Of a DNA stretch of 64,000 bases, positions 28,106-39,887 are shown piece after piece. Under the pieces are notes generated by a model. It did no database searches. It had not been told where the DNA came from and was given only the letters and a program-made list of their open reading frames with translations. The stretch's first letter is position 1. Each line of letters opens with the position of its first letter. The position numbers and the translations under genes are program-made. Location: positions 1-64,000 of the forward strand of contig NZ_JAOWLB010000015.1 in assembly GCF_025751555.1 (NCBI RefSeq). Reading direction: 5' to 3'. The stretch comes from Ruegeria aquimaris. Its GTDB lineage: Bacteria > Pseudomonadota > Alphaproteobacteria > Rhodobacterales > Rhodobacteraceae.

Positions 28106-29017
28106 TCAGCGGCCCCGGATGCGCGGGTCGAGCGCGTCGCGCAGGCCGTCGCCCAGATAGTTGACGCTGAGCACGGTGAGCGAGATCGCCAGACCGGGCC
28201 AGATCACCCGTTCGGGGAATTGTTGCAGATAGTCGACGCCATCGAACAACAGCCGCCCCCAGGTCGGGAAGTCGGGCGGGAAACCGAGACCCAGGAAACT
28301 GAGCGCGCTTTCGGTGATGATCGCGGTGGCGATACCAAGGGTGGCTGACACCATGATCGGCGACAACACGTTGGGCAGGATATGCCGGGTGATCAGCCGC
28401 GTGTTCGTGGTGCCGATCGAGCGGGCCGCCAGCACGAATTCGCGTTCCTTCAGCGCCAGCACATCGCCGCGCACGATCCGCGCGGTGGGCATCCATGAAG
28501 TAATGCCGATGGCCGACACGATGAGGATGAAGATCCCCCGCTCGAGCCCGAAGGCGGCGTTCAGCGGCTCGCGGAACAGCAGCATCATCACCAGCAGCAG
28601 CGGCAGCAGGGGCAGGGCGAGGAACAGGTCGGTGAGCCGCATCAGCGGCCCGTCGAGTTTGCGGAAGAACCCGGCCAGCACACCGACGAATGACCCGAGG
28701 ATCAGCGACAGCATCATCGCGGTGATGCCAACCGAAACCGAGGTCGCGCCGCCTGCCATCATCCGGGCCAGCAGGTCGCGGCCCAATTGGTCGGTGCCAA
28801 AGGGATGCGCCAGGCTGGGCCCCTGGTTGCGCTCGCGGATGGCGGTCTTGGTCGGGTCGATATCCCAAAGATACGGGCCCAGATAGACAGCGGCCACGAT
28901 CAGGAAGAACAGGGTCGCCCCCATCATCGCGCCCTTGTGCTGACGGAACTGGTCCCACACGTCATACCATTGGCTGCGCGGCGGTTTGGTGGGCTGGGGT
29001 TGGCTCAACTCAGTCAT
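28106..29017 (-). CDS. Peptide-type ABC transporter permease (DppC/OppC-like)
   Basis: 303 residues from the ATG at 29017, which overlaps the upstream permease stop by 8 nt; this coupling decides the start over an in-frame upstream codon. Inner-membrane permease with the OppC N-terminal domain (WYDVWDQFRQHKGAMMG) and six helices. The periplasmic segment HPFGTDQLGRDLLARMMAG and the EAA loop region (AARSIGTTNTRLITRHILPN) contact the ATPase. The tail GLRDALDPRIRGR is a typical DppC ending. It works with the partner permease, binding protein and fused ATPase. Confidence 0.95.
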   Translation of the reverse strand: MTELSQPQPTKPPRSQWYDVWDQFRQHKGAMMGATLFFLIVAAVYLGPYLWDIDPTKTAIRERNQGPSLAHPFGTDQLGRDLLARMMAGGATSVSVGITAMMLSLILGSFVGVLAGFFRKLDGPLMRLTDLFLALPLLPLLLVMMLLFREPLNAAFGLERGIFILIVSAIGITSWMPTARIVRGDVLALKEREFVLAARSIGTTNTRLITRHILPNVLSPIMVSATLGIATAIITESALSFLGLGFPPDFPTWGRLLFDGVDYLQQFPERVIWPGLAISLTVLSVNYLGDGLRDALDPRIRGR

Positions 29018-30017
29018 AGCGGATCCGCGGGTCAAGGATGCCATACAGGACGTCGGCGATCAGGTTGAAGAGTACGATCAGCACGGCAAAGATAAAGGTC
29101 AGGGTCTGCACCATCGGCAGGTCGTTGGCCTGAAGCGCACCGATCAGCAGCTGGCCGATGCCGTTCACCTTGAACACCTGCTCGGTGATGATGGCGCCGC
29201 CAAAGATCGAGGGAATGCCCAGCGCGATCACGGTCACCACCGGGATCATCGAGTTCCGCAGCACGTGGACCATCACGACGACATATTCGCTGAGCCCCTT
29301 GGCGCGGGCGGTGCGGACGTAATCCTGGTTCAGGTTGTCCAGCATCGAGGCGCGCATGAAACGGGAAAGCTGTGCGGTGATCTGGAGCGCCAGCACCATT
29401 ACCGGCATGATCATCTGTTTGAGCTGATAGACGAAACTGTCCCAACTGTTGACCACATGTGTGGTGTCATAGATCGACGGGAACCAGCCAAGCTGCACCG
29501 AGAAGATCACGATCACCAGCACGCCCGAGAAGAAGGGGGGCACCGAGAAGCCCACCATCGAGACAAAGGTCCCGAGCTGGTCGAACCAGCTGTATTGCCG
29601 GTAGGCGGAATAGATGCCGATGGGCAGGGCGATAATGATGGCCACCACATAGGCGGTGCCGACCACCCACAGGGTCTGCGGGATACGCTGCACCACGATA
29701 TCCATCACCGGCGAACGGGTCTGCCAAGAGATCACCCGCAGCTTGCCCTCGGAAAAGGCGGTGCCGAAGTAATGGTCGATCAGCACCTGCGGTTCGATCC
29801 AGAAGAACTGCACGATCCATTTCCAGAACCGGATATGCACCGGCTGGCCGAGACCCAGCGCCTCGCGCATCTTTTCCTTGACCTCGGGCGGAACCGTCAG
29901 CGGCACCTGTGCCATGGGATCGCCCGGGGCCAGTTCCAGCAGCAGGAAGATGACAAGACTGATGAACAAAAGCGTCGGAATTGCCAGAACCAGACGGCGG
30001 ATGGTGAAGGTCAGCAT
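29010..30017 (-). CDS. Peptide-type ABC transporter permease (DppB/OppB-like)
   Basis: 335 residues with six or seven helices. The N-terminus FTIRRLVLAIPTLLFISLVIF is the classic DppB opening, the EAA region reads TARAKGLSEYVVVMVHVLRNSMIPVV, and the end ADVLYGILDPRIRYD is standard. It follows the binding-protein gene after 95 nt containing a large hairpin that probably lowers permease expression relative to the binding protein. Confidence 0.95.
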   Translation of the reverse strand: MLTFTIRRLVLAIPTLLFISLVIFLLLELAPGDPMAQVPLTVPPEVKEKMREALGLGQPVHIRFWKWIVQFFWIEPQVLIDHYFGTAFSEGKLRVISWQTRSPVMDIVVQRIPQTLWVVGTAYVVAIIIALPIGIYSAYRQYSWFDQLGTFVSMVGFSVPPFFSGVLVIVIFSVQLGWFPSIYDTTHVVNSWDSFVYQLKQMIMPVMVLALQITAQLSRFMRASMLDNLNQDYVRTARAKGLSEYVVVMVHVLRNSMIPVVTVIALGIPSIFGGAIITEQVFKVNGIGQLLIGALQANDLPMVQTLTFIFAVLIVLFNLIADVLYGILDPRIRYD

Positions 30018-30112: not shown

Positions 30113-31813
30113 TTACTTGATGCGGTACCAGTCGGCTACGTTCCACAGCTCGCTGTCCCACACGTTCAGGACGACGCCGCCCAGCGTGTTGGAATGAGCC
30201 GACAGACGGCCACGGTGCACCAGCGGGATCATGCCGCCGTTTTCGACCATGATGTCGTTCAGGCGCTTGGCAATTTCCGCGCGTGCATCGGCACCGGCAG
30301 TCTTGGTCAGTTCGGCATGCAGCGCATCGTATTCTTCGTTGCAGAAGCGGCTGATGTTCTCACCCTGCCACTGGCTTTCGGGCTTGGGCGCCTTGTCGCA
30401 CAGGCCGTTGGCCAGATAGGACTGCGGGTCGGTGCCGTTGAAGGTGTTGGCGTACATTTCCACGTCGGCATAGAACTTCTGGAAGGTGTCGGGCGAGCCC
30501 GGGTCACCACCGAAGAACACCGATGCGTTGATGTTGCGCAGTTCGGATTCGATACCGATCTCGGCCCACCACTCCTTGATCAGAGCCTGAAAGTCCTGAC
30601 GCACGGCGTTGGTCGAGGTCTGGTAGACCACTTTCAGCGGCACGCCGTCCTTTTCGCGGACGCCGTCGCCGTCGCTGTCGACGATGCCGGCATCATCCAG
30701 CAGCTTCTTGGCGCCTTCGATGTCCTGAGTGTCGCAGGTGAATGTGTCCGAGTTCACGGCCGCAGGCGCCGGGACCCAGTTGCAGGTGACCTTGCCGGCC
30801 TGACCATAGCCGATCTCAACCAGCAGCGGCCGGTCGATGGCCATCGACATCGCCTTGTAGACAGCCGGATCCTTAAGGAAGGGATGCGGGTGCTTGGCGG
30901 TCGAGCGTTCGCCTTCGGGCAGGTCGGGCGAGGGGTTGGTCTGGTTCAGCATGATACGCTCGACCAGCGGACCAAAGCCCGCGACCGGGGTACCCTTGCC
31001 GCCCGCCTGCATCTGCTGGATCACCTCGGGCGCCAGCTGAAGGTTCCAGGCATAGTCGAACTCGCCGGTTTCCATCACGGCGCGACCGGCCGCGGTGGCA
31101 TCGCCGCCGCCCTTGAAAGTCAGCGTGGCAAAGGCCGGTTTGTTCGGGTCACGATAGTTGTCGTTGGCCTTCATGGTGATCACGTCGTTCGGCTTGAACT
31201 CGGTGACGACAAAGGGGCCGGTGCCGATCGGGCCAAAGTTCTCGGTGGTGCATTCGGGGGCCTTGGCGCCCATGCAGTTCTCGAACTGGGCCTTCTGGAT
31301 GATCGGGCTTTCGCCACCCACGAAGGGGCCATAGGGGAACGGGGTCGGCTTGTCGAAGGTGACCTTGACGGTCATGTCATCGAGCGCCTCGACCGAGGTT
31401 ACGCCCTCGAACTTGGTGAGCTGCGCGCAGCCGCCTTCGGGATGCATGCAGTAGTCGGCGGTGAATTTCACGTCATGGGCGGTAAAGGCGCTGCCATCCG
31501 ACCACTTGATGCCCGGCGCGATCTTCCAGGTGATCGAGGTCAGATCGGCGCTGACGCCGCCATTCTCGACGGTCGGAATCTCGGAGGCCAGGAAGGGTAC
31601 CATGCCGCCGTTTTCGTCGTAACGGGCCAGCGGTTCGATGATCAGCGACGCGGATTCAACGTCCTTGGTGCCGCCTGACAGGAACGGGTTCAGGATCGAG
31701 GGGGCCTGCCAGTAGATGATGCTGACATTGCCGTCGGCGCCGCGCTCGGCAAAGGCCGCGGGGGCCAATGCGGTGCAGGCAATCGCACCCATAAGTAGGG
31801 TTTTGATCTTCAT
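30113..31813 (-). CDS. Periplasmic peptide-type solute-binding protein (SBP family 5)
   Basis: 566 residues from the ATG at 31813, with AGGAG 7 nt upstream. The first 23 residues are a signal peptide cleaved after AAFA. Family 5 features include SLIIEPLARYDENG, the WSDGSAFTAHDVKFTADY segment near residue 115 and the late DWYRIK end. A DSDGDGVREKDG stretch (about residue 365) resembles a calcium-binding loop, a known variation in this family. It delivers substrate to the two permeases downstream. Ligand unknown; adjacent deacylase genes suggest acylated amino acids or short peptides. Confidence 0.94.
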   Translation of the reverse strand: MKIKTLLMGAIACTALAPAAFAERGADGNVSIIYWQAPSILNPFLSGGTKDVESASLIIEPLARYDENGGMVPFLASEIPTVENGGVSADLTSITWKIAPGIKWSDGSAFTAHDVKFTADYCMHPEGGCAQLTKFEGVTSVEALDDMTVKVTFDKPTPFPYGPFVGGESPIIQKAQFENCMGAKAPECTTENFGPIGTGPFVVTEFKPNDVITMKANDNYRDPNKPAFATLTFKGGGDATAAGRAVMETGEFDYAWNLQLAPEVIQQMQAGGKGTPVAGFGPLVERIMLNQTNPSPDLPEGERSTAKHPHPFLKDPAVYKAMSMAIDRPLLVEIGYGQAGKVTCNWVPAPAAVNSDTFTCDTQDIEGAKKLLDDAGIVDSDGDGVREKDGVPLKVVYQTSTNAVRQDFQALIKEWWAEIGIESELRNINASVFFGGDPGSPDTFQKFYADVEMYANTFNGTDPQSYLANGLCDKAPKPESQWQGENISRFCNEEYDALHAELTKTAGADARAEIAKRLNDIMVENGGMIPLVHRGRLSAHSNTLGGVVLNVWDSELWNVADWYRIK

Positions 31814-31917: not shown

Positions 31918-31936
31918 CACTCGCGTTACGCGAGTG
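31918..31936. promoter_or_regulatory. Inverted repeat in the divergent transporter control region
   Basis: CACTCGCG, TTA, CGCGAGTG: a perfect 8-bp inverted repeat in the 285-bp gap between the binding-protein gene and the ATPase gene. No regulator gene adjoins, so whether it is an operator or an RNA hairpin is open. Confidence 0.4.
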
Positions 31937-32098
31937 CCTATCACTTCCCCCACAACGGTTACGTCGCGTATCGAAACAGAGTTTTGAAAAAATGCAAGCC
32001 TTGCCGTCGGGAAAACGGTCAATGCGTTTGACTCTTTGCCAGCGACAGCCGTAGCGTTTGGCAAACAAAAACATAAGGCGACCAAAGGGAGCGCGCGC

Positions 32099-33919
32099 GT
32101 GCTGGATCAGCCTATTGCCCAGATCAGAAAACTGAGAGTCGAGTTTCAGACCAAGGATGGCCCGGTTGTGGGGGTCGAAGACGTGTCGTTCGAGGTGCGT
32201 CCCGGCGAAACCGTGTGCATCGTCGGCGAATCAGGGTCCGGCAAGTCCGTCTCGTCGCTGTCGCTGATGCGGCTTGTCGAATTCGGCGGGGGTGACATCG
32301 CCGGTGGACAGCTTTTGTTCGACCGTGGCAAGGGCGGAGAGCTGGATCTGGCCAAGGTCGATCAGGACCAGATGCGCGATATTCGGGGCAACGAGATCGG
32401 AATGATCTTTCAGGAGCCGATGACGGCGCTGAACCCGGTGTTCACAGTGGGCCGGCAGTTGACCGAGGGGCTGCGGGTGCATCGCGGTCTCAGCCAGGCG
32501 GAGGCCGAGAAGCGGGCGCTGGAATTGTTGCGCCAGGTCCGCATCCCGGAACCCGAGCGGCGCCTGAAGCAATACCCGCACGAACTCAGCGGTGGTATGC
32601 GCCAGCGGGTGGTGATCGCGATGGCGATGGCTTGCCAGCCACGCCTTCTGATCGCGGATGAACCCACGACCGCGCTGGACGTGACCATCCAGGCCGAGAT
32701 CCTGGCGCTGATGGATCGGCTCAAGCGCGAGACCGGGACGGCGGTGATGTTCATCACCCATGACATGGCGGTGGTGGCCCAGATGGCCGACCGCGTGGTC
32801 GTCATGTTCCGGGGCAACAAGGTCGAAGAGGGCACGGTCGAGGAAATCTTCGAGAACCCGCAGCATGCATATACCAAGGCGCTGCTGGCGGCGGTGCCGA
32901 AGCTGGGCGAAATGCGCGGCAAGGCCGCGCCCGAGCCGATGAAGCTGATGGGGGTCGCGGATCAGAAGATCGAGCCGATCATGGGCACTGACAAGCCCCT
33001 GCTGCGGGTCAAGGGGCTGACCACCAGATTTGCAGTCAAGGGCGGGTTTTTTCGTCGCACGGTCGCCAATGTGCATGCGGTCGAGGATGTCTCCTTTACC
33101 CTCAACAAGGGGCAGACGCTGAGCCTTGTGGGCGAATCGGGCTGTGGCAAATCATCCGCAGGGCGATCCATCTTGCGGCTTGTCGAACCGATGGCGGGCG
33201 AGATCAATCTGGACGGCGTCGATGTGATGCAACTCGACCAGTCGGGGTTGCGCAAGGCGCGGCTCGACATGCAGATGATCTTTCAGGACCCGTTCGCCTC
33301 GCTCAATCCGCAGATGCAGTTGCTGGAGCAGGTGGCCGAACCGATGCGCAACTATGGTGTTGCGAGCGGGTCCGAACTGGTGGACCGGGTTGCCTCGCTG
33401 TTCGACCGGGTGCAACTGCCGCGCAGCTTCATGCGCCGCTACCCACATGAGATGTCCGGCGGTCAGCGGCAGCGGATCGCAATCGCCCGGGCGCTGGCGC
33501 TGAACCCCAAGCTGATCGTCGCGGATGAGGCGGTCTCGGCGCTGGACGTGTCGGTGCAGGCACAGGTGCTGAACCTGATGATGGAATTGCAGGCCGATCT
33601 TGGCCTGAGCTATCTGTTCATCAGCCATGACATGGCGGTGGTCGAACGGGTCAGCCACAATGTGGGCGTCATGTATCTGGGCCGGATTGTCGAACTTGGC
33701 ACGCGTGAGAAGGTGTTCGAGAACCCGCAGCACCCCTATACGCAGGCCTTGATGAAGGCGGTTCCGATTGCCGATCCCAGAATGCGGAAGTCGGAGAAGG
33801 ATCTGAACTTCAAGCCGATCCCGTCCCCGATCCATCCGATTGGTTATGTGCCGGAACCGTCGCGCTATGACGAGGTCGAGCCGGGTCACTATGTGCTGAC
33901 CACGGACAGCGGTTACTGA
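32099..33919 (+). CDS. Fused dual-domain ABC ATPase of the peptide-type importer
   Basis: 606 residues from the GTG at 32099, supported by AAAGGGAG 7 nt upstream; the open frame upstream to 32036 has only a TTG. Two complete ATPase domains sit in one chain. Domain 1 has Walker A GESGSGKS near residue 44, signature LSGGMRQRV near 165 and LLIADEPTTALD. Domain 2 has GESGCGKS near residue 344, signature MSGGQRQRI near 455, and LIVADEAVSALDVS. The domains correspond to DppD and DppF (GsiA-like fusion). Each ends in an oligopeptide C-terminal extension (NPQHAYTKALLAAVP, NPQHPYTQALMKAVP). Confidence 0.95.
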   Translation: MLDQPIAQIRKLRVEFQTKDGPVVGVEDVSFEVRPGETVCIVGESGSGKSVSSLSLMRLVEFGGGDIAGGQLLFDRGKGGELDLAKVDQDQMRDIRGNEIGMIFQEPMTALNPVFTVGRQLTEGLRVHRGLSQAEAEKRALELLRQVRIPEPERRLKQYPHELSGGMRQRVVIAMAMACQPRLLIADEPTTALDVTIQAEILALMDRLKRETGTAVMFITHDMAVVAQMADRVVVMFRGNKVEEGTVEEIFENPQHAYTKALLAAVPKLGEMRGKAAPEPMKLMGVADQKIEPIMGTDKPLLRVKGLTTRFAVKGGFFRRTVANVHAVEDVSFTLNKGQTLSLVGESGCGKSSAGRSILRLVEPMAGEINLDGVDVMQLDQSGLRKARLDMQMIFQDPFASLNPQMQLLEQVAEPMRNYGVASGSELVDRVASLFDRVQLPRSFMRRYPHEMSGGQRQRIAIARALALNPKLIVADEAVSALDVSVQAQVLNLMMELQADLGLSYLFISHDMAVVERVSHNVGVMYLGRIVELGTREKVFENPQHPYTQALMKAVPIADPRMRKSEKDLNFKPIPSPIHPIGYVPEPSRYDEVEPGHYVLTTDSGY

Positions 33920-33932
33920 TTGGGTGAAGAAA

Positions 33933-35099
33933 ATGGCCGCGCGATTATCACCGCTGGCGATCATGACCAAGCTTGTGTCTTTCCCGACCGTCAGTCGAGA
34001 TACCAACCTGCCGCTGGTGGATTGGCTTGAGGACTATCTTACGGGCCATGGGATCGAGACCCATCGCTGGATTGACCCCGAGCAGCCGCACAAGGCCGCG
34101 CTGATGGCGCATGCCGGTCCCCGTGTCGAGGGGGCGGTTGTGCTGTCGGGGCATAGCGACGTGGTGCCTGTTGACGGTCAGGACTGGGACAGCGACCCGT
34201 TCGCCGTGGTCGAGCGGGACGGCAAGTATTTCGGGCGTGGCACCTGCGACATGAAGGGGTTCGACGCGCTGGCGATCTGGGCGCTGGTCGAGGGGCACCA
34301 TCGCGGGTTGAAGCGCCCGTTGCAGCTGGCGCTGAGTTTCGACGAGGAGCTTGGCTGCACCGGGGCGCCGCCGATGATTGCCGAGATGCAGAAGCTGCTG
34401 CCCAAGGGCAGCGCGGTCATTGTGGGCGAGCCGTCGATGATGCAGGCGGTGACCGGTCACAAGGGCGGGCAGACCTTTCGGATCGAGGTCTGGGGGCACG
34501 AGGTTCACAGCTCGATCATGCATACTGGCGTCAGCGCGGTGATGGAGGCCGCGCGGGTGATCCAATGGGCCAACGAGGTCAACGCGGCGGAAGCGGCACG
34601 CGCGCCGTCTGATGTGGCGGCGATGTTCGATCCACCGTTCACCACCCTGCATACGGGGCTGATCGAGGGCGGCACCGCGCAGAACATCACGGCGCGACAG
34701 TGCCGGTTTGACCTGGGGTTCCGGGCGGTCCCCGACCAGCCGCATGAAGACTGGCGGAGCCGCATCCTGGGCCGCATCGCCGAGGTGGAGCAGGCGATGC
34801 AGGCCGTTCACCCGGAGGCCCGCATTGATGTGGAAACCCGGTTTGGCGTGCCGGGGCTGGTGCCTGAGCAAGAGGGCGAGGCCGAGGCGCTTGCCCGCGC
34901 GCTGACCGGTGACAATGCCAGCCACGTGGTCAGTTACGGTACCGAGGCGGGCCAGTTTCAGGAAGCGGGATATTCCGCCGTGGTCTGTGGGCCAGGCGAC
35001 ATCGCCCAGGCGCATCAGGCGAACGAGTTCATATCCGTAGCGCAGTTCGAGGCCGGGCACGGGTTCATGCGCCGCCTGGTTGACCGGTTGGCCGCCTGA
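33933..35099 (+). CDS. M20 deacylase, acetylornithine deacetylase (ArgE)-like
   Basis: 388 residues from the ATG at 33933; a GTG 9 nt upstream (33924) is equally possible. A cytoplasmic metallohydrolase that removes an N-acyl group. Metal site segments are SGHSDVVPVDG (His), GRGTCDMKG (bridging Asp), FDEELGC (catalytic Glu and ligand) and VGEPS, with a His near the C-terminus in EAGHGFM. ArgE-type length and motif order fit, but its place between a peptide importer and four M20D enzymes suggests catabolic deacylation of an imported N-acyl amino acid rather than arginine synthesis. The gap to the ATPase gene is 13 nt. Confidence 0.88.
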   Translation: MAARLSPLAIMTKLVSFPTVSRDTNLPLVDWLEDYLTGHGIETHRWIDPEQPHKAALMAHAGPRVEGAVVLSGHSDVVPVDGQDWDSDPFAVVERDGKYFGRGTCDMKGFDALAIWALVEGHHRGLKRPLQLALSFDEELGCTGAPPMIAEMQKLLPKGSAVIVGEPSMMQAVTGHKGGQTFRIEVWGHEVHSSIMHTGVSAVMEAARVIQWANEVNAAEAARAPSDVAAMFDPPFTTLHTGLIEGGTAQNITARQCRFDLGFRAVPDQPHEDWRSRILGRIAEVEQAMQAVHPEARIDVETRFGVPGLVPEQEGEAEALARALTGDNASHVVSYGTEAGQFQEAGYSAVVCGPGDIAQAHQANEFISVAQFEAGHGFMRRLVDRLAA

Positions 35100-35130: not shown

Positions 35131-36297
35131 ATGCCGATAAAGAACCGACTTGCCGATCTGCATTCCGAGATCACCGGTTGGCGCCGTCATCTGCATGCGC
35201 ACCCCGAGCTTATGTACGATGTGCATGAGACCGCGGGTTTCGTTGCCGAACGTCTGAAGGAGTTCGGGATCGACGACATCACCACTGGGGTCGGCAAGAC
35301 CGGCGTGGTCGCGACGATCAAGGGCAAGAGCGACAGCAAGGGGCGGGTGATCGGCCTGCGCGCCGACATGGATGCACTGCCGATCACCGAGATCACCGGG
35401 CTCGACTATGCCTCGACCGTACCGGGCAAGATGCATGCCTGCGGCCATGACGGGCATACGGCGATGCTCTTGGGCGCGGCAAAATACTTGGCCGAGACGC
35501 GCAATTTCGATGGCACGGTCGTGCTGATCTTTCAGCCCGCCGAAGAGGGCGGCGCGGGCGGCAAGGCGATGTGCGACGACGGGTTGATGGACCGTTGGGG
35601 CATCCAGGAAGTCTATGGCATGCATAACGCGCCCGGAATTCCTGTGGGGACTTTCGCCATCCGGCCCGGGCCGCTGATGGCCTCGTCCGATGATTTCGAG
35701 ATCGTGGTGACGGGCAAGGGCGGGCATGCCGCCTCGCCGCATGATGCGATTGACACGACGCTTGTCGCCTCGCAGATCGTGGTATCGCTGCATTCCATCG
35801 TGTCGCGCAATATCGACCCGTTGAAATCGGTGGTTCTGACCGTGGGGACGTTCAAGACCGATAGCGACGCGTCGAACATCATTGCGCATACGGTCCGGAT
35901 GACGGGCACGGTGCGGACGCTGGACAGCGCATACCGCGCCATTGCCGAGGACCGGGTGCGCCGTGTGGCGACCGATATCGCCAGCGCCTATGGGGCAACG
36001 GCCGAGGTGAACTGGGCACCCGGTTATCCGGTGACGATAAATTCGGAGGCCGAAACCCAACACGCAATCGAGGCCGCGCGCGCGGTGTCCGGCAACGTGG
36101 ATGAGGACACGCCGCCGATCATGCCCAGCGAAGATTTCTCCTACATGCTGGAAGAGCGGCCCGGCGCCTATATGTTCCTTGGTAATGGTGACACCGCACA
36201 ATGCCATCACCCGGCCTATAACTTCGATGACGAGGCGATCCCGGTCGGATGCAGCTGGTTTGCCGAGATCGTCGAACGACGCATGCCCGCCGCCTGA
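35131..36297 (+). CDS. M20D amidohydrolase (hippurate hydrolase-like), copy 1
   Basis: 388 residues; AGGAGA lies 6 nt before the ATG. Hydrolyses an amide bond of an N-acyl amino acid or related conjugate using two divalent metals. Visible ligands: Cys and His in HACGHDGH near residue 103, Glu-Glu in QPAEEGG near 137, His in MHNAPG near 167 and the final His in CHHPAYNF near 360. This copy differs from the other three in having MPSEDF instead of GGEDF near residue 333 and MHNAPGIPVG rather than HNWPG, both beside the active site. This points to different specificity. Confidence 0.93.
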   Translation: MPIKNRLADLHSEITGWRRHLHAHPELMYDVHETAGFVAERLKEFGIDDITTGVGKTGVVATIKGKSDSKGRVIGLRADMDALPITEITGLDYASTVPGKMHACGHDGHTAMLLGAAKYLAETRNFDGTVVLIFQPAEEGGAGGKAMCDDGLMDRWGIQEVYGMHNAPGIPVGTFAIRPGPLMASSDDFEIVVTGKGGHAASPHDAIDTTLVASQIVVSLHSIVSRNIDPLKSVVLTVGTFKTDSDASNIIAHTVRMTGTVRTLDSAYRAIAEDRVRRVATDIASAYGATAEVNWAPGYPVTINSEAETQHAIEAARAVSGNVDEDTPPIMPSEDFSYMLEERPGAYMFLGNGDTAQCHHPAYNFDDEAIPVGCSWFAEIVERRMPAA

Positions 36298-36325
36298 GCG
36301 GGCCGAACGGACAGGAAGACACAGG

Positions 36326-37489
36326 ATGCCGATCAAGAACCGCCTTGCCGAAATGCATGCCGAAATCACCGAATGGCGGCGCGACATCCACAGGCACCCG
36401 GAGATCCTGTACGAAACCCACCGGACCTCTGCCATGGTGGCGGACAAGCTGCGGTCGTTTGGCTGTGACGAGGTGGTGACCGGCATCGGGCGTACCGGCG
36501 TTGTCGGTGTGATCCGGGGCAAGAGCGACACGGCGGGCCGCGTCGTGGGATTGCGCGCCGATATGGACGCACTGCCGATGCAGGAGCAGACGGGGCTCGA
36601 TTATGCCTCGGACATTCCCGGCGCCATGCATGCCTGTGGCCATGACGGCCATACCGCGATGCTCTTGGGCGCGGCCAAGTATCTGGCCGAGACCAGGAAC
36701 TTCGACGGCACGGCGATCGTGATCTTCCAGCCCGCAGAAGAGGGCGGCAATGGTGCCGAGGCGATGGTCAAGGACGGCATGATGGACCGGTTCGGGGTGC
36801 AGGAGGTCTATGCCATGCACAATCATCCGGGCCTGGCCGCCGGTCAGTTCAAGATCCGGCCCGGGCCGCTGCTGGCCGCCGCCGATACGTTCGAGATCCA
36901 TCTCGAAGGGCACGGGGGCCATGCGGCCAAGCCACACGACACGGTCGATACCACGGTGATGTTGTCGCAGATGATCGTGGCGCTGCAAACGGTGGTGTCG
37001 CGCAATACCGACCCGATCCTGCAAGCGGTGCTGTCGGTGACCTCGGTCGAGACCTCGTCGAAGGCGTTCAACGTGATCCCGCAGGCGGCCACGCTGAGGG
37101 GGACTGTGCGCACCCATTCGGGGGAGATGCGCGATTTGATCGAACGGCGTCTTGGCGAGGTGGTTCAGGGGATTGCCGCCACCTTTGGCGGCAAGGCCGA
37201 GGTGAATTACGAGCGCGGCGTGCCGGTGACGGTGAATGCCGAGGAACAGACCCGCCATGCCGCAGAGGTGGCGGAACGGGTTTCGGGCGGCTGCGGCGAG
37301 GCCGCCATGGTGATGGGAGGCGAGGACTTCTCCTTCATGCTGGAGGCGCGCCCGGGGGCCTTCATCATGATCGGCAACGGGCCAAGCGCCGGGCTGCACC
37401 ACCCGGAATACAACTTCAATGACGAGATCATACCAGCGGGCTGTTCCTGGTTCGCCGAGATGATCGAGCGCCGGATGCCGGCGGCATAG
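36326..37489 (+). CDS. M20D amidohydrolase (hippurate hydrolase-like), copy 2
   Basis: 387 residues. Metal-site motifs HACGHDGH, QPAEEGG, MHNHPGLAAG and LHHPEYNF are all present, as is VMGGEDFSFML. An extra His replaces the Trp/Ala after HN (HNHPG), distinguishing it from its neighbours. The dimerisation/lid domain (residues about 185-300) has ETSSKAFNVIPQAATLRGTVR. Ribosome binding site ACAGG lies upstream of the ATG; 28 nt separate it from copy 1. Closest to copy 4 in overall wording. Confidence 0.93.
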   Translation: MPIKNRLAEMHAEITEWRRDIHRHPEILYETHRTSAMVADKLRSFGCDEVVTGIGRTGVVGVIRGKSDTAGRVVGLRADMDALPMQEQTGLDYASDIPGAMHACGHDGHTAMLLGAAKYLAETRNFDGTAIVIFQPAEEGGNGAEAMVKDGMMDRFGVQEVYAMHNHPGLAAGQFKIRPGPLLAAADTFEIHLEGHGGHAAKPHDTVDTTVMLSQMIVALQTVVSRNTDPILQAVLSVTSVETSSKAFNVIPQAATLRGTVRTHSGEMRDLIERRLGEVVQGIAATFGGKAEVNYERGVPVTVNAEEQTRHAAEVAERVSGGCGEAAMVMGGEDFSFMLEARPGAFIMIGNGPSAGLHHPEYNFNDEIIPAGCSWFAEMIERRMPAA

Positions 37490-37502
37490 AGGAGGACAGG
37501 CG

Positions 37503-38672
37503 ATGCCGGTCAAGAACAGGTTTGCCGAATTGCAGAATCAGATCGCCGAATGGCGGCGCGATATCCATGCGCATCCCGAGATAAGGTTCGAGGAACACCG
37601 CACCAGTGCGCTGGTGGCCGATCAGTTGCGCGCCTTTGGCTGTGATGCCGTGGAGACCGGGGTCGGACAGACCGGGGTTGTGGGTGTCATCCATGGCCGG
37701 GAAAACGGCTCGGGCCGGGTGATGGCCTTTCGCGCTGATATGGATGCGCTGCCGATCATAGAGGCGACCGGGCTGCCGCATGCCTCGACCCATGCGGGCA
37801 AGATGCATGCCTGCGGTCATGACGGCCATACCGCGATGCTGCTGGGGGCGGCGCAATACCTGGCCGAGACCCGCAATTTCGACGGTACCGTGGTGCTGCT
37901 GTTCCAGCCCGCCGAAGAGGGCGGCGGTGGCGCCAAGGCGATGCTGGCCGATGGGGTGATGGACCGCTACGGCGTGAACGAGGTCTATGGCCTGCACAAC
38001 TGGCCGGGCCTGCCGGTGGGCCAGTTCGGCTTACGCGAAGGGCCGATGATGGGGGCCGTGGATTTCTTTGAAATCAAGGTTCAGGGCCGGGGTGGGCATG
38101 GGGCCATGCCGCATCTGACCGCCGATGCCACGCTGGCTGCCGCGCAGCTGACCGTGGCCCTGCAACAAGTGGTGGCGCGCAATGTCGATCCGATGAAACC
38201 GGCGGTCCTGTCGGTGTGTTCGCTGCGCACCGACAGCAACGCCCATAACGTGATCGCCGACAGCGCCATGATCAAGGGAACCGTGCGCTACCTGCACCCC
38301 GAAGTGCAGGCGCTGATCCGCGCCCGCATGACCGAGGTAACCCGTGCCACCGCAGAGGCACATGGCGCAACGGCCGAGCTGAACTATATGCAGCTGGTGC
38401 CGGTCACCAGCAACCCGGCCCCCGGTGCGGCCCATGCCGCCGAAGCGGCGCGGGCGGTGACCGGCCAGCCCCCGATCGACATCGACCCGGTGATGGGCGG
38501 CGAGGATTTCGCCGACATGCTGGCCGAGCGCCCTGGCGCCTTTATCTTTCTGGGCAATGGCGACAGCGCCGATCTGCACCATCCCGCCTATGAATTCAAC
38601 GACGCGGCCATTCCCGCCGGGTGCAGCTGGTTCGCCACGCTGGCCGAGCAGCGAATGCCGCTTAACCCCTGA
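37503..38672 (+). CDS. M20D amidohydrolase (hippurate hydrolase-like), copy 3
   Basis: 389 residues. It carries HACGHDGH, QPAEEGGGG, LHNWPGLPVG, VMGGEDFADML and LHHPAYEF, so the binuclear metal site is intact. It is the most divergent of the four in the lid domain (DPMKPAVLSVCSLRTDSNAHNVI), which usually shapes substrate choice. GAGGACAGGCG precedes the ATG, 13 nt after copy 2. Confidence 0.93.
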   Translation: MPVKNRFAELQNQIAEWRRDIHAHPEIRFEEHRTSALVADQLRAFGCDAVETGVGQTGVVGVIHGRENGSGRVMAFRADMDALPIIEATGLPHASTHAGKMHACGHDGHTAMLLGAAQYLAETRNFDGTVVLLFQPAEEGGGGAKAMLADGVMDRYGVNEVYGLHNWPGLPVGQFGLREGPMMGAVDFFEIKVQGRGGHGAMPHLTADATLAAAQLTVALQQVVARNVDPMKPAVLSVCSLRTDSNAHNVIADSAMIKGTVRYLHPEVQALIRARMTEVTRATAEAHGATAELNYMQLVPVTSNPAPGAAHAAEAARAVTGQPPIDIDPVMGGEDFADMLAERPGAFIFLGNGDSADLHHPAYEFNDAAIPAGCSWFATLAEQRMPLNP

Positions 38673-38693
38673 TGTGACGCAAGAGGAAACATT

Positions 38694-39857
38694 ATGCCCG
38701 TCAAGAATCGCTTTGCAGAATTGCAATCCGAGATCACCGAATGGCGCCGGGATATCCATGAAAACCCGGAAATCCTGTTCGAAACCCACCGGACAAGCGC
38801 GCTGGTAGCCGAAAAGCTGCAAGAGTTCGGCTGTGACGAGGTGGTGACCGGCATCGGCCGCACCGGCGTGGTCGGGGTGATCAAGGGCAAGAGCGACAGC
38901 AAGGGCAAGGTGATCGGGCTGCGCGCCGATATGGACGCGCTGCCGATCCATGAGCAGACCGGGCTCGAATATGCCTCGAAGACGCCGAATGCCATGCATG
39001 CCTGTGGCCATGACGGCCATACCGCTATGCTCTTGGGCGCGGCCAAGTATCTGGCCGAGACCCGCAATTTCGACGGTACCGTGGTGGTGATCTTTCAGCC
39101 CGCCGAAGAGGGCGGCGGCGGTGGCCGCGAGATGTGCGAGGATGGCATGATGGACCGCTGGAACATCCAGGAGGTCTACGGCATGCACAACTGGCCCGGC
39201 GCGCCCGTGGGCAGTTTCGCAATCCGTCCCGGCGCGTTTTTTGCCGCCACCGACCAGTTCGACATCACCTTCGAAGGGCGTGGCGGCCATGCGGCCAAGC
39301 CGCATGAGACGGTCGATACCACGGTGATGACCGCGCAGGCGGTGCTGGCGCTGCAAACCATCGCCAGCCGCAACGCCGACCCGATCGACCAGGTGGTAGT
39401 CTCGGTCACCTCGTTCGAAACCTCGTCCAAGGCGTTCAACGTGATCCCGCAGCGGGTGCAGATCAAGGGCACCGTGCGCACCATGTCCAAGGGGATGCGC
39501 GACCTGGCCGAAAAGCGCATTCACGAGATCTGTTCGGGCATCGCGGCCACCTTCGGTGGCTCTGCCGATATACGCTATATCCGGGGTTATCCGGTGATGG
39601 TGAACTCGGACGAGCAGACCGAGTTCGCCGCCAAGGTGGCGCGCGACGTCTCGGGGGGCTGCGAGGAGGCGGCACTGGTCATGGGGGGCGAGGATTTCGC
39701 CTATATGCTCGAAGAGCGCCCGGGGGCCTATATCCTGGTCGGCAATGGCGACACGGCGATGGTGCATCACCCCGAATACAACTTCAACGACGAGGCCATT
39801 CCGGCGGGATGCAGCTGGTGGGCCGGGATCGTCGAACAGCGGATGCCGGCGGCCTGA
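38694..39857 (+). CDS. M20D amidohydrolase (hippurate hydrolase-like), copy 4
   Basis: 387 residues with intact HACGHDGH, QPAEEGGGG, MHNWPGAPVG, VMGGEDFAYML and VHHPEYNF. The lid sequence VTSFETSSKAFNVIPQRV is close to copy 2, suggesting that those two share the most recent duplication or have exchanged sequence by gene conversion. AGAGGAAAC lies upstream of the ATG. It ends the operon, followed by a hairpin. Confidence 0.93.
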   Translation: MPVKNRFAELQSEITEWRRDIHENPEILFETHRTSALVAEKLQEFGCDEVVTGIGRTGVVGVIKGKSDSKGKVIGLRADMDALPIHEQTGLEYASKTPNAMHACGHDGHTAMLLGAAKYLAETRNFDGTVVVIFQPAEEGGGGGREMCEDGMMDRWNIQEVYGMHNWPGAPVGSFAIRPGAFFAATDQFDITFEGRGGHAAKPHETVDTTVMTAQAVLALQTIASRNADPIDQVVVSVTSFETSSKAFNVIPQRVQIKGTVRTMSKGMRDLAEKRIHEICSGIAATFGGSADIRYIRGYPVMVNSDEQTEFAAKVARDVSGGCEEAALVMGGEDFAYMLEERPGAYILVGNGDTAMVHHPEYNFNDEAIPAGCSWWAGIVEQRMPAA

Positions 39858-39867
39858 GGAAGAGGAG

Positions 39868-39887
39868 GAGGGGGCGTCTGCCCCCTC
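39868..39887 (+). terminator. GC-rich hairpin after the M20D array
   Basis: GAGGGGGC, loop GTCT and GCCCCCTC form a perfect 8-bp stem 11 nt after the stop codon of copy 4. It is followed by TTGGCCTTTGAGGCC, itself a small palindrome (GGCCTTTGAGGCC). The intergenic repeat box lies 26 nt further on. Confidence 0.65.

Follow-up and report, generated by a model that had tools for sequence, protein, structure and literature searches.

An ordered array of M20D amidohydrolases with differing acyl pockets beside an Opp/Dpp-type importer in Ruegeria aquimaris

Results

The window analysed is a stretch of 64,000 nucleotides from Ruegeria aquimaris (GCF_025751555.1, contig NZ_JAOWLB010000015.1, positions 1 to 64,000 of the forward strand), belonging to a 5.04-Mb assembly of 61 contigs in which 21 M20 matches were counted. 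Four M20D amidohydrolase genes (A1-A4), all complete, follow one another on the same strand, separated by 28, 13 and 21 bp, behind the genes of an ArgE-like deacylase and of a fused importer ATPase (Table 1). The genes of the substrate-binding protein (SBP) and of two permeases run opposite to this ATPase-ArgE-M20D run, across a divergent gap of 285 bp. The first-pass annotation had described the same layout, four genes of 387-389 codons in a row with the ArgE-like and ATPase genes ahead and the SBP and permeases divergent, and its coordinates agree to the base. The closest named relatives of the proteins belong to the roseobacter group, Ruegeria included. Right after A4, at 39862-39885, lies a GC-rich hairpin, GAGGGGGCGTCTGCCCCCTC, without a T-run, and the next gene is convergent. 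The same genome holds, at another locus (L179; G000:C2, ~6.0-10.1 kb), another opp-type ATPase gene directly followed by a tandem M20 pair; its product shares 44% identity with the window ATPase.

Table 1. Genes and control features of the importer and amidohydrolase locus
Feature	Coordinates	Strand	Remarks
OppC/DppC-like permease	28106..29044	-	family scans
OppB/DppB-like permease	29010..30017	-	family scans
Periplasmic substrate-binding protein (SBP), SBP_bac_5, cluster C	30113..31813	-	family scans
29-bp element ATCGAAACAGAGTTTTGAAAAAATGCAAG (= ATCGAAACAGAGTTTNNNAAAAWTGCAAG)	31970..31998	+	conserved between the SBP and ATPase genes; single genomic copy
Promoter-like GTTTGAC-N18-GTAGCGT ahead of the ATPase gene	32026..32057	+	conservation; putative function
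Fused ABC importer ATPase of Opp/Dpp type, with two nucleotide-binding domains	32099..33919	+	putative GTG start
ArgE-like M20A deacylase (acetylornithine deacetylase family)	33924..35099	+	family scans
A1, M20D amidohydrolase, orthologue group I	35131..36297	+	388 aa; family scan and tree
A2, M20D amidohydrolase, group II	36326..37489	+	387 aa; 71.6% identity to A4
A3, M20D amidohydrolase, group III	37503..38672	+	389 aa; family scan and tree
A4, M20D amidohydrolase, group IV (final slot, best conserved)	38694..39857	+	387 aa; family scan and tree

Pairwise identity among A1-A4 is 57.7-71.6% over the full length, with A2 and A4 the closest pair; a likeness of 58-72% is far beyond chance, and the M20D fold of all four is clear from the sequence. 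In the TIGR01891 amidohydrolase scan A1, A3 and A4 scored 364.9, 359.2 and 351.5 bits against a cut-off of 153.75, and these three, which the family scans covered, also match Pfam Peptidase_M20 and M20_dimer; A2 was assigned to the family through its 72% identity to A4. Scores with two equivalog models stayed below their cut-offs, at about 357-366 bits for the CpsA carboxypeptidase NF040868 (cut-off 500) and 321-339 bits for DoeB2, NF038260 (cut-off 550). The full metal-ligand set that had been claimed for the four proteins, C104, H106, E139, H165 and H358 (A4 numbering), is present in each, as is H199 of the dimer-domain loop. Across the array proteins C104, H106, E138, E139, H165, H199 and H358 are invariant (168/168), which gives these proteins the di-metal set with bridging Cys, the general-base Glu and the dimer-loop His expected of M20D. 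N249, R262 and D334 are likewise invariant in 168 of 168, N249 and R262 being the counterparts of the substrate-carboxylate residues N251 and R264 of the Corynebacterium striatum aminoacylase CsAga.

The ArgE-like protein scored 483 bits with NF005710 (cut-off 412) and 374.5 bits with TIGR01892 (cut-off 297.7). Since the genome has ArgJ (465.8 bits), arginine synthesis would not require the ArgE-like enzyme, whose role is probably catabolic. The transporter proteins comprise an SBP_bac_5 binding protein, two BPD_transp_1 permeases and two ABC_tran domains with oligo_HPY, both ABC_tran stretches lying in the fused ATPase, and are thus of Opp/Dpp type; their scores lie under the GsiA, DppA and OppA equivalog cut-offs.

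The divergent gap holds a conserved 29-bp element, for which 34 matches at up to five mismatches were found in 200 loci, 33 of them between the SBP and ATPase genes, facing the latter, and none for the reversed pattern in the same 200 loci. Scanning the genome at up to three mismatches for a possible regulon returned no copy besides the one in the control region. The element is putatively promoter- or operator-like. The nearby GTTTGAC-N18-GTAGCGT was not picked up by a sigma-70 consensus scan. On the opposite strand, in the binding-protein leader (31918-31936), a perfect inverted repeat with 8-bp arms, CACTCGCG-TAA-CGCGAGTG, then GTTTTTGG, is terminator- or attenuator-like; as an operator it was rejected, being conserved not even in the nearest relative.

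Gene order was read in more than 100 loci, and the family sample consisted of 198 genomes, mostly one per genus. An SBP orthologue (E <= 1e-100) occurs in 147 of the 198 (131/174 among good-quality genomes), and M20D relatives matching the A1-A4 profile occur in 196, usually one to three in each, the maximum, eight, being reached in four genomes, that of the window among them. The usual layout is OppC<-OppB<-SBP<- ->ATPase-ArgE-[FAD enzyme]-M20D(1-4): the copy-number survey found arrays of one to four copies, which adjoin opp genes in 50-odd loci, and in some relatives a pair of unfused genes on the opposite strand encodes the ATPase. Two trees, of 181 and 208 proteins, gave the same picture, and in the larger one groups I (39 rows), II (19) and III (11) are monophyletic across genera, with group II nested in the group IV lineage. 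The order of slots is nearly fixed, ArgE-[FAD oxidase]-I-II-III-IV, with group I first in 28/30 and group IV last in 32/32 multi-gene arrays. Four-copy arrays read I-II-III-IV in the window genome, in a congener (G031) and in G148, and I-II-II-IV in G092 and G193; the exception to the usual order is G084, with an unassigned copy followed by III-I-IV. In one genome (G128; L139, L227) the array is split, I and II staying with the importer and IV standing alone on another contig.

Because groups I-IV span many genera in near-constant order, the duplications predate the sampled genera. Gene amplification followed by specificity divergence, the explanation first put forward, therefore holds only in part: the paralogues do form an operon-like run and their pocket residues differ, but the amplification is ancient and not a recent local event. 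On the gene orders compared, slots have come and gone locally while the last gene stayed conserved. Given the tandem arrangement on one strand with short gaps, it could be argued that a single enzyme was recently amplified for dosage, with near-identical function, and the synonymous identity of A2 and A4 (65% in the window versus 43-52% between loci) leaves room for some gene conversion or shared codon bias. Such a recent amplification is nevertheless most improbable, as the copies are only 58-72% identical and differ in their pocket residues and, furthermore, the tree contradicts it: each copy lies nearer to its counterparts from other genera than to the copy beside it.

The slots are not equally conserved. 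When the same pairs of loci are compared, the identity of group IV exceeds that of group I in 406/406, of group II in 120/120 and of group III in 21/21, a comparison partly biased by the choice of loci through their best match, mostly a group IV protein; in the enlarged set the mean identity within group IV is 77% versus 65-68% in the other groups. By these sequence comparisons group IV is the most constrained copy.

The linkage was also approached from the binding protein, in 36 SBP-centred loci with enough sequence; these were the remainder after M20D-based sampling and are biased towards weaker arrays, the strongest having already been taken, and they contain the ArgE-like gene in 29/36 and at least one adjacent M20D gene in 22/36. 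The absence of an adjacent M20D gene from 14/36 implies that the importer can work without the array, and the genes beside the importer in such loci gave no common substrate clue. This raises the possibility that importer and hydrolases are mere neighbours: cluster-C binding proteins take many ligands, and the importer could serve a metal chelate, an opine or another small molecule while the M20D enzymes act as independent deacylases, as the 14 loci would allow. However, this scenario is highly unlikely given the tight linkage and constant orientation across many genera, the gap of just 4 bp between the ATPase stop and the ArgE-like start, and the conserved control element ahead of the whole ATPase-ArgE-M20D run.

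For CsAga, the N-alpha-acyl-glutamine aminoacylase of C. striatum (PDB 6SLF), the residues that bind zinc and those that bind the carboxylate, Gln side chain and acyl chain of the substrate are listed with the structure (PMC7209930), and this list was transferred to the array proteins by profile alignment. The acyl-pocket residues F170, F185, L186, L335 and G337 of CsAga (PMC7209930) correspond to A4 positions 167, 182, 183, 329 and 331, where A1 has A/L/M/I/P, A2 H/L/L/V/G, A3 W/M/M/V/G and A4 W/F/F/V/G. The motif differences described in the first-pass annotation occur as given, with MPSEDF in A1 and GGEDF in A2-A4, and HNAPG, HNHPG, HNWPG and HNWPG in A1-A4 in turn, so that HNWPG is common to A3 and A4; both differences are acyl-pocket positions on the 6SLF map, but they are not general signatures of the copies, as group I mostly has M and group II at least ten residues at the HNxPG position. 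Because both fall in the acyl pocket of a solved M20D structure, specificity divergence among A1-A4 is their likely meaning.

The divergence of residue frequencies between groups at the five pocket sites was compared with that of random five-site sets, sites 167, 182 and 183 having been marked as a group IV signature before the pocket definition was taken from PMC7209930. Divergence was 0.89 between groups I and IV against a mean of 0.17, and 0.58 between II and IV against a mean of 0.13 (P < 0.0001 for both). Versus variable sites only, the I-IV and II-IV differences persist (P < 0.0001 and P = 0.0006), those of I-III (0.055), I-II (0.09) and III-IV (0.15) are borderline or absent, and that of II-III is not significant (0.73). 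Groups I and II differ from group IV most strongly in the acyl pocket. In group IV proteins sampled via the SBP, W167, F182 and F183 are kept in 13/14. Site 167 lies two residues away from an invariant zinc ligand and yet ranks second of 387 sites in entropy within group II; as group II is no looser overall, with 146 invariant sites in samples of 11 versus 143 in group I, this pattern favours retuning over decay. The Gln-binding residues of CsAga, D301 and N191, are not kept in A1-A4, where the aligned residues are P/R/Q/R and D/T/F/Q, which suggests that the amino-acid side of the substrate may vary too.

In about half of the sampled M20D-bearing loci, a DAO-family FAD gene lies between the ArgE-like gene and the array. 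The best PDB match of its product is the Proteus L-amino acid deaminase (5fjm, E 1e-61), to which it is ~30% identical. None is present in the window, and the best hit in the rest of the genome shows 40% identity. The FAD enzyme in relatives supports a route in which the amino-acid half would be released and then deaminated. Arrays with group II are mostly without this gene, L039 and L160 being exceptions.

Discussion

It is suggested, with a probability of roughly 0.6, that the locus encodes a divergent salvage system for imported X-CO-NH-amino acids, in which the hydrolases share an amino-acid clamp and differ in their acyl pockets. Here we infer import, cytoplasmic action, the class of substrate and the pairing of each enzyme with its X. 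The SBP, two permeases and fused ATPase would import small amides of this form with a free alpha-carboxylate, and the amide would be split in the cytoplasm, at a two-metal centre, by the ArgE-like enzyme together with as many as four M20D enzymes. All M20D copies would grip the carboxylate of the amino acid by Asn249/Arg262, and the pockets for X would differ, giving each copy its own range of X: the fixed W/F/F pocket of A4 is predicted to take short acyl groups, and the smaller pocket residues of A1 and A2 bulkier X. In many relatives the FAD enzyme of the operon, resembling L-amino acid deaminase, would deaminate the freed amino acid. The copies would stem from ancient duplications, kept or lost per lineage. 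X may be an acyl or aryl group or an N-terminal amino acid, as in a dipeptide.

A further and rather doubtful extension is that the array is an adaptable salvage set, in which a fixed group IV enzyme would serve common short-acyl conjugates and slots I-III would have their acyl pocket retuned per lineage, in slot II through recurrent substitution at a single position next to the metal, matching local acyl-amino acids, for example N-acyl amino acids made by algae or bacteria, or N-acyl-homoserines in opened form.

The enzyme families concerned are known. CsAga shares with the array the M20D fold, the metal ligands, the carboxylate Asn/Arg and the five acyl-pocket positions, but its Gln-specific D301 and N191 are absent from A1-A4 and it has not been described with a linked importer or as part of an array. 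In a profile search the nearest solved relatives were Bacillus subtilis YxeP (1YSJ, E 2.7e-100) and the Arabidopsis IAA-amino acid hydrolase ILL2 (1XMB, E 7.4e-90), both distant from A1-A4 in sequence. YxeP is encoded in an operon and has a role with amino-acid conjugates. The Escherichia coli gsi operon (isoaspartyl dipeptidase IaaA and GsiABCD) likewise has a fused two-domain Opp-type ATPase and importer genes beside a peptidase gene, and the best score of the window ATPase was with GsiA (768, under the 1077 cut-off); unlike the present locus, gsi has a single hydrolase, of another family. As far as the searched literature shows, what is new is the ordered multi-slot array linked to an importer, with divergence centred on the acyl pocket. 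Although roughly three quarters of the sampled family genomes encode the binding protein, a search of the open-access literature on Roseobacter, Ruegeria and Phaeobacter yielded no paper treating the locus or its substrate, and peptide importers go unmentioned in the main text of a paper on Ruegeria transporters. The comparison gives a testable prediction with named residues, the same amino-acid end and a different acyl end, and A1-A4 offer a natural series for studies of M20D specificity. If the proposed function is true, acyl- or aryl-amino acids (or selected dipeptides) join the known diet of these bacteria.

Because the M20D family also holds dipeptidases, 'N-acyl or conjugated amino acids', the substrate class proposed at the outset, stays provisional. 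Indeed, the locus could serve ordinary dipeptide use: Opp/Dpp transporters import dipeptides, A1-A4 would be carboxydipeptidases that differ in the N-terminal residue accepted, and the 'acyl pocket' would be an S1 pocket. This is unlikely, though it is a rival to be taken seriously, since the transporter is of the peptide class by family scans and M20D members from Burkholderia, Deinococcus and Staphylococcus reportedly act as Met-X carboxydipeptidases (Jamdar 2015, cited in PMC11511702). The binding protein bears on the question from both sides: in a low-identity alignment, N459 of the window SBP falls on the alpha-amine anchor (OppA D419 / DppA D408), a position with Asp in 53 of ~121 orthologues and otherwise N, S, A or P, so that the amine-binding Asp occurs in many but is not fixed. 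This variability speaks, weakly, for substrates that need not have a free amine. Furthermore, ArgE-type enzymes are N-acyl deacylases, which argues against dipeptide use. The anchor residue showed no link with array size (P = 0.23) or with the FAD enzyme (P = 1.0). In four loci of relatives (L146, L040, L244 and L220) the binding-protein gene itself is duplicated in tandem, possibly a parallel widening of ligand range.
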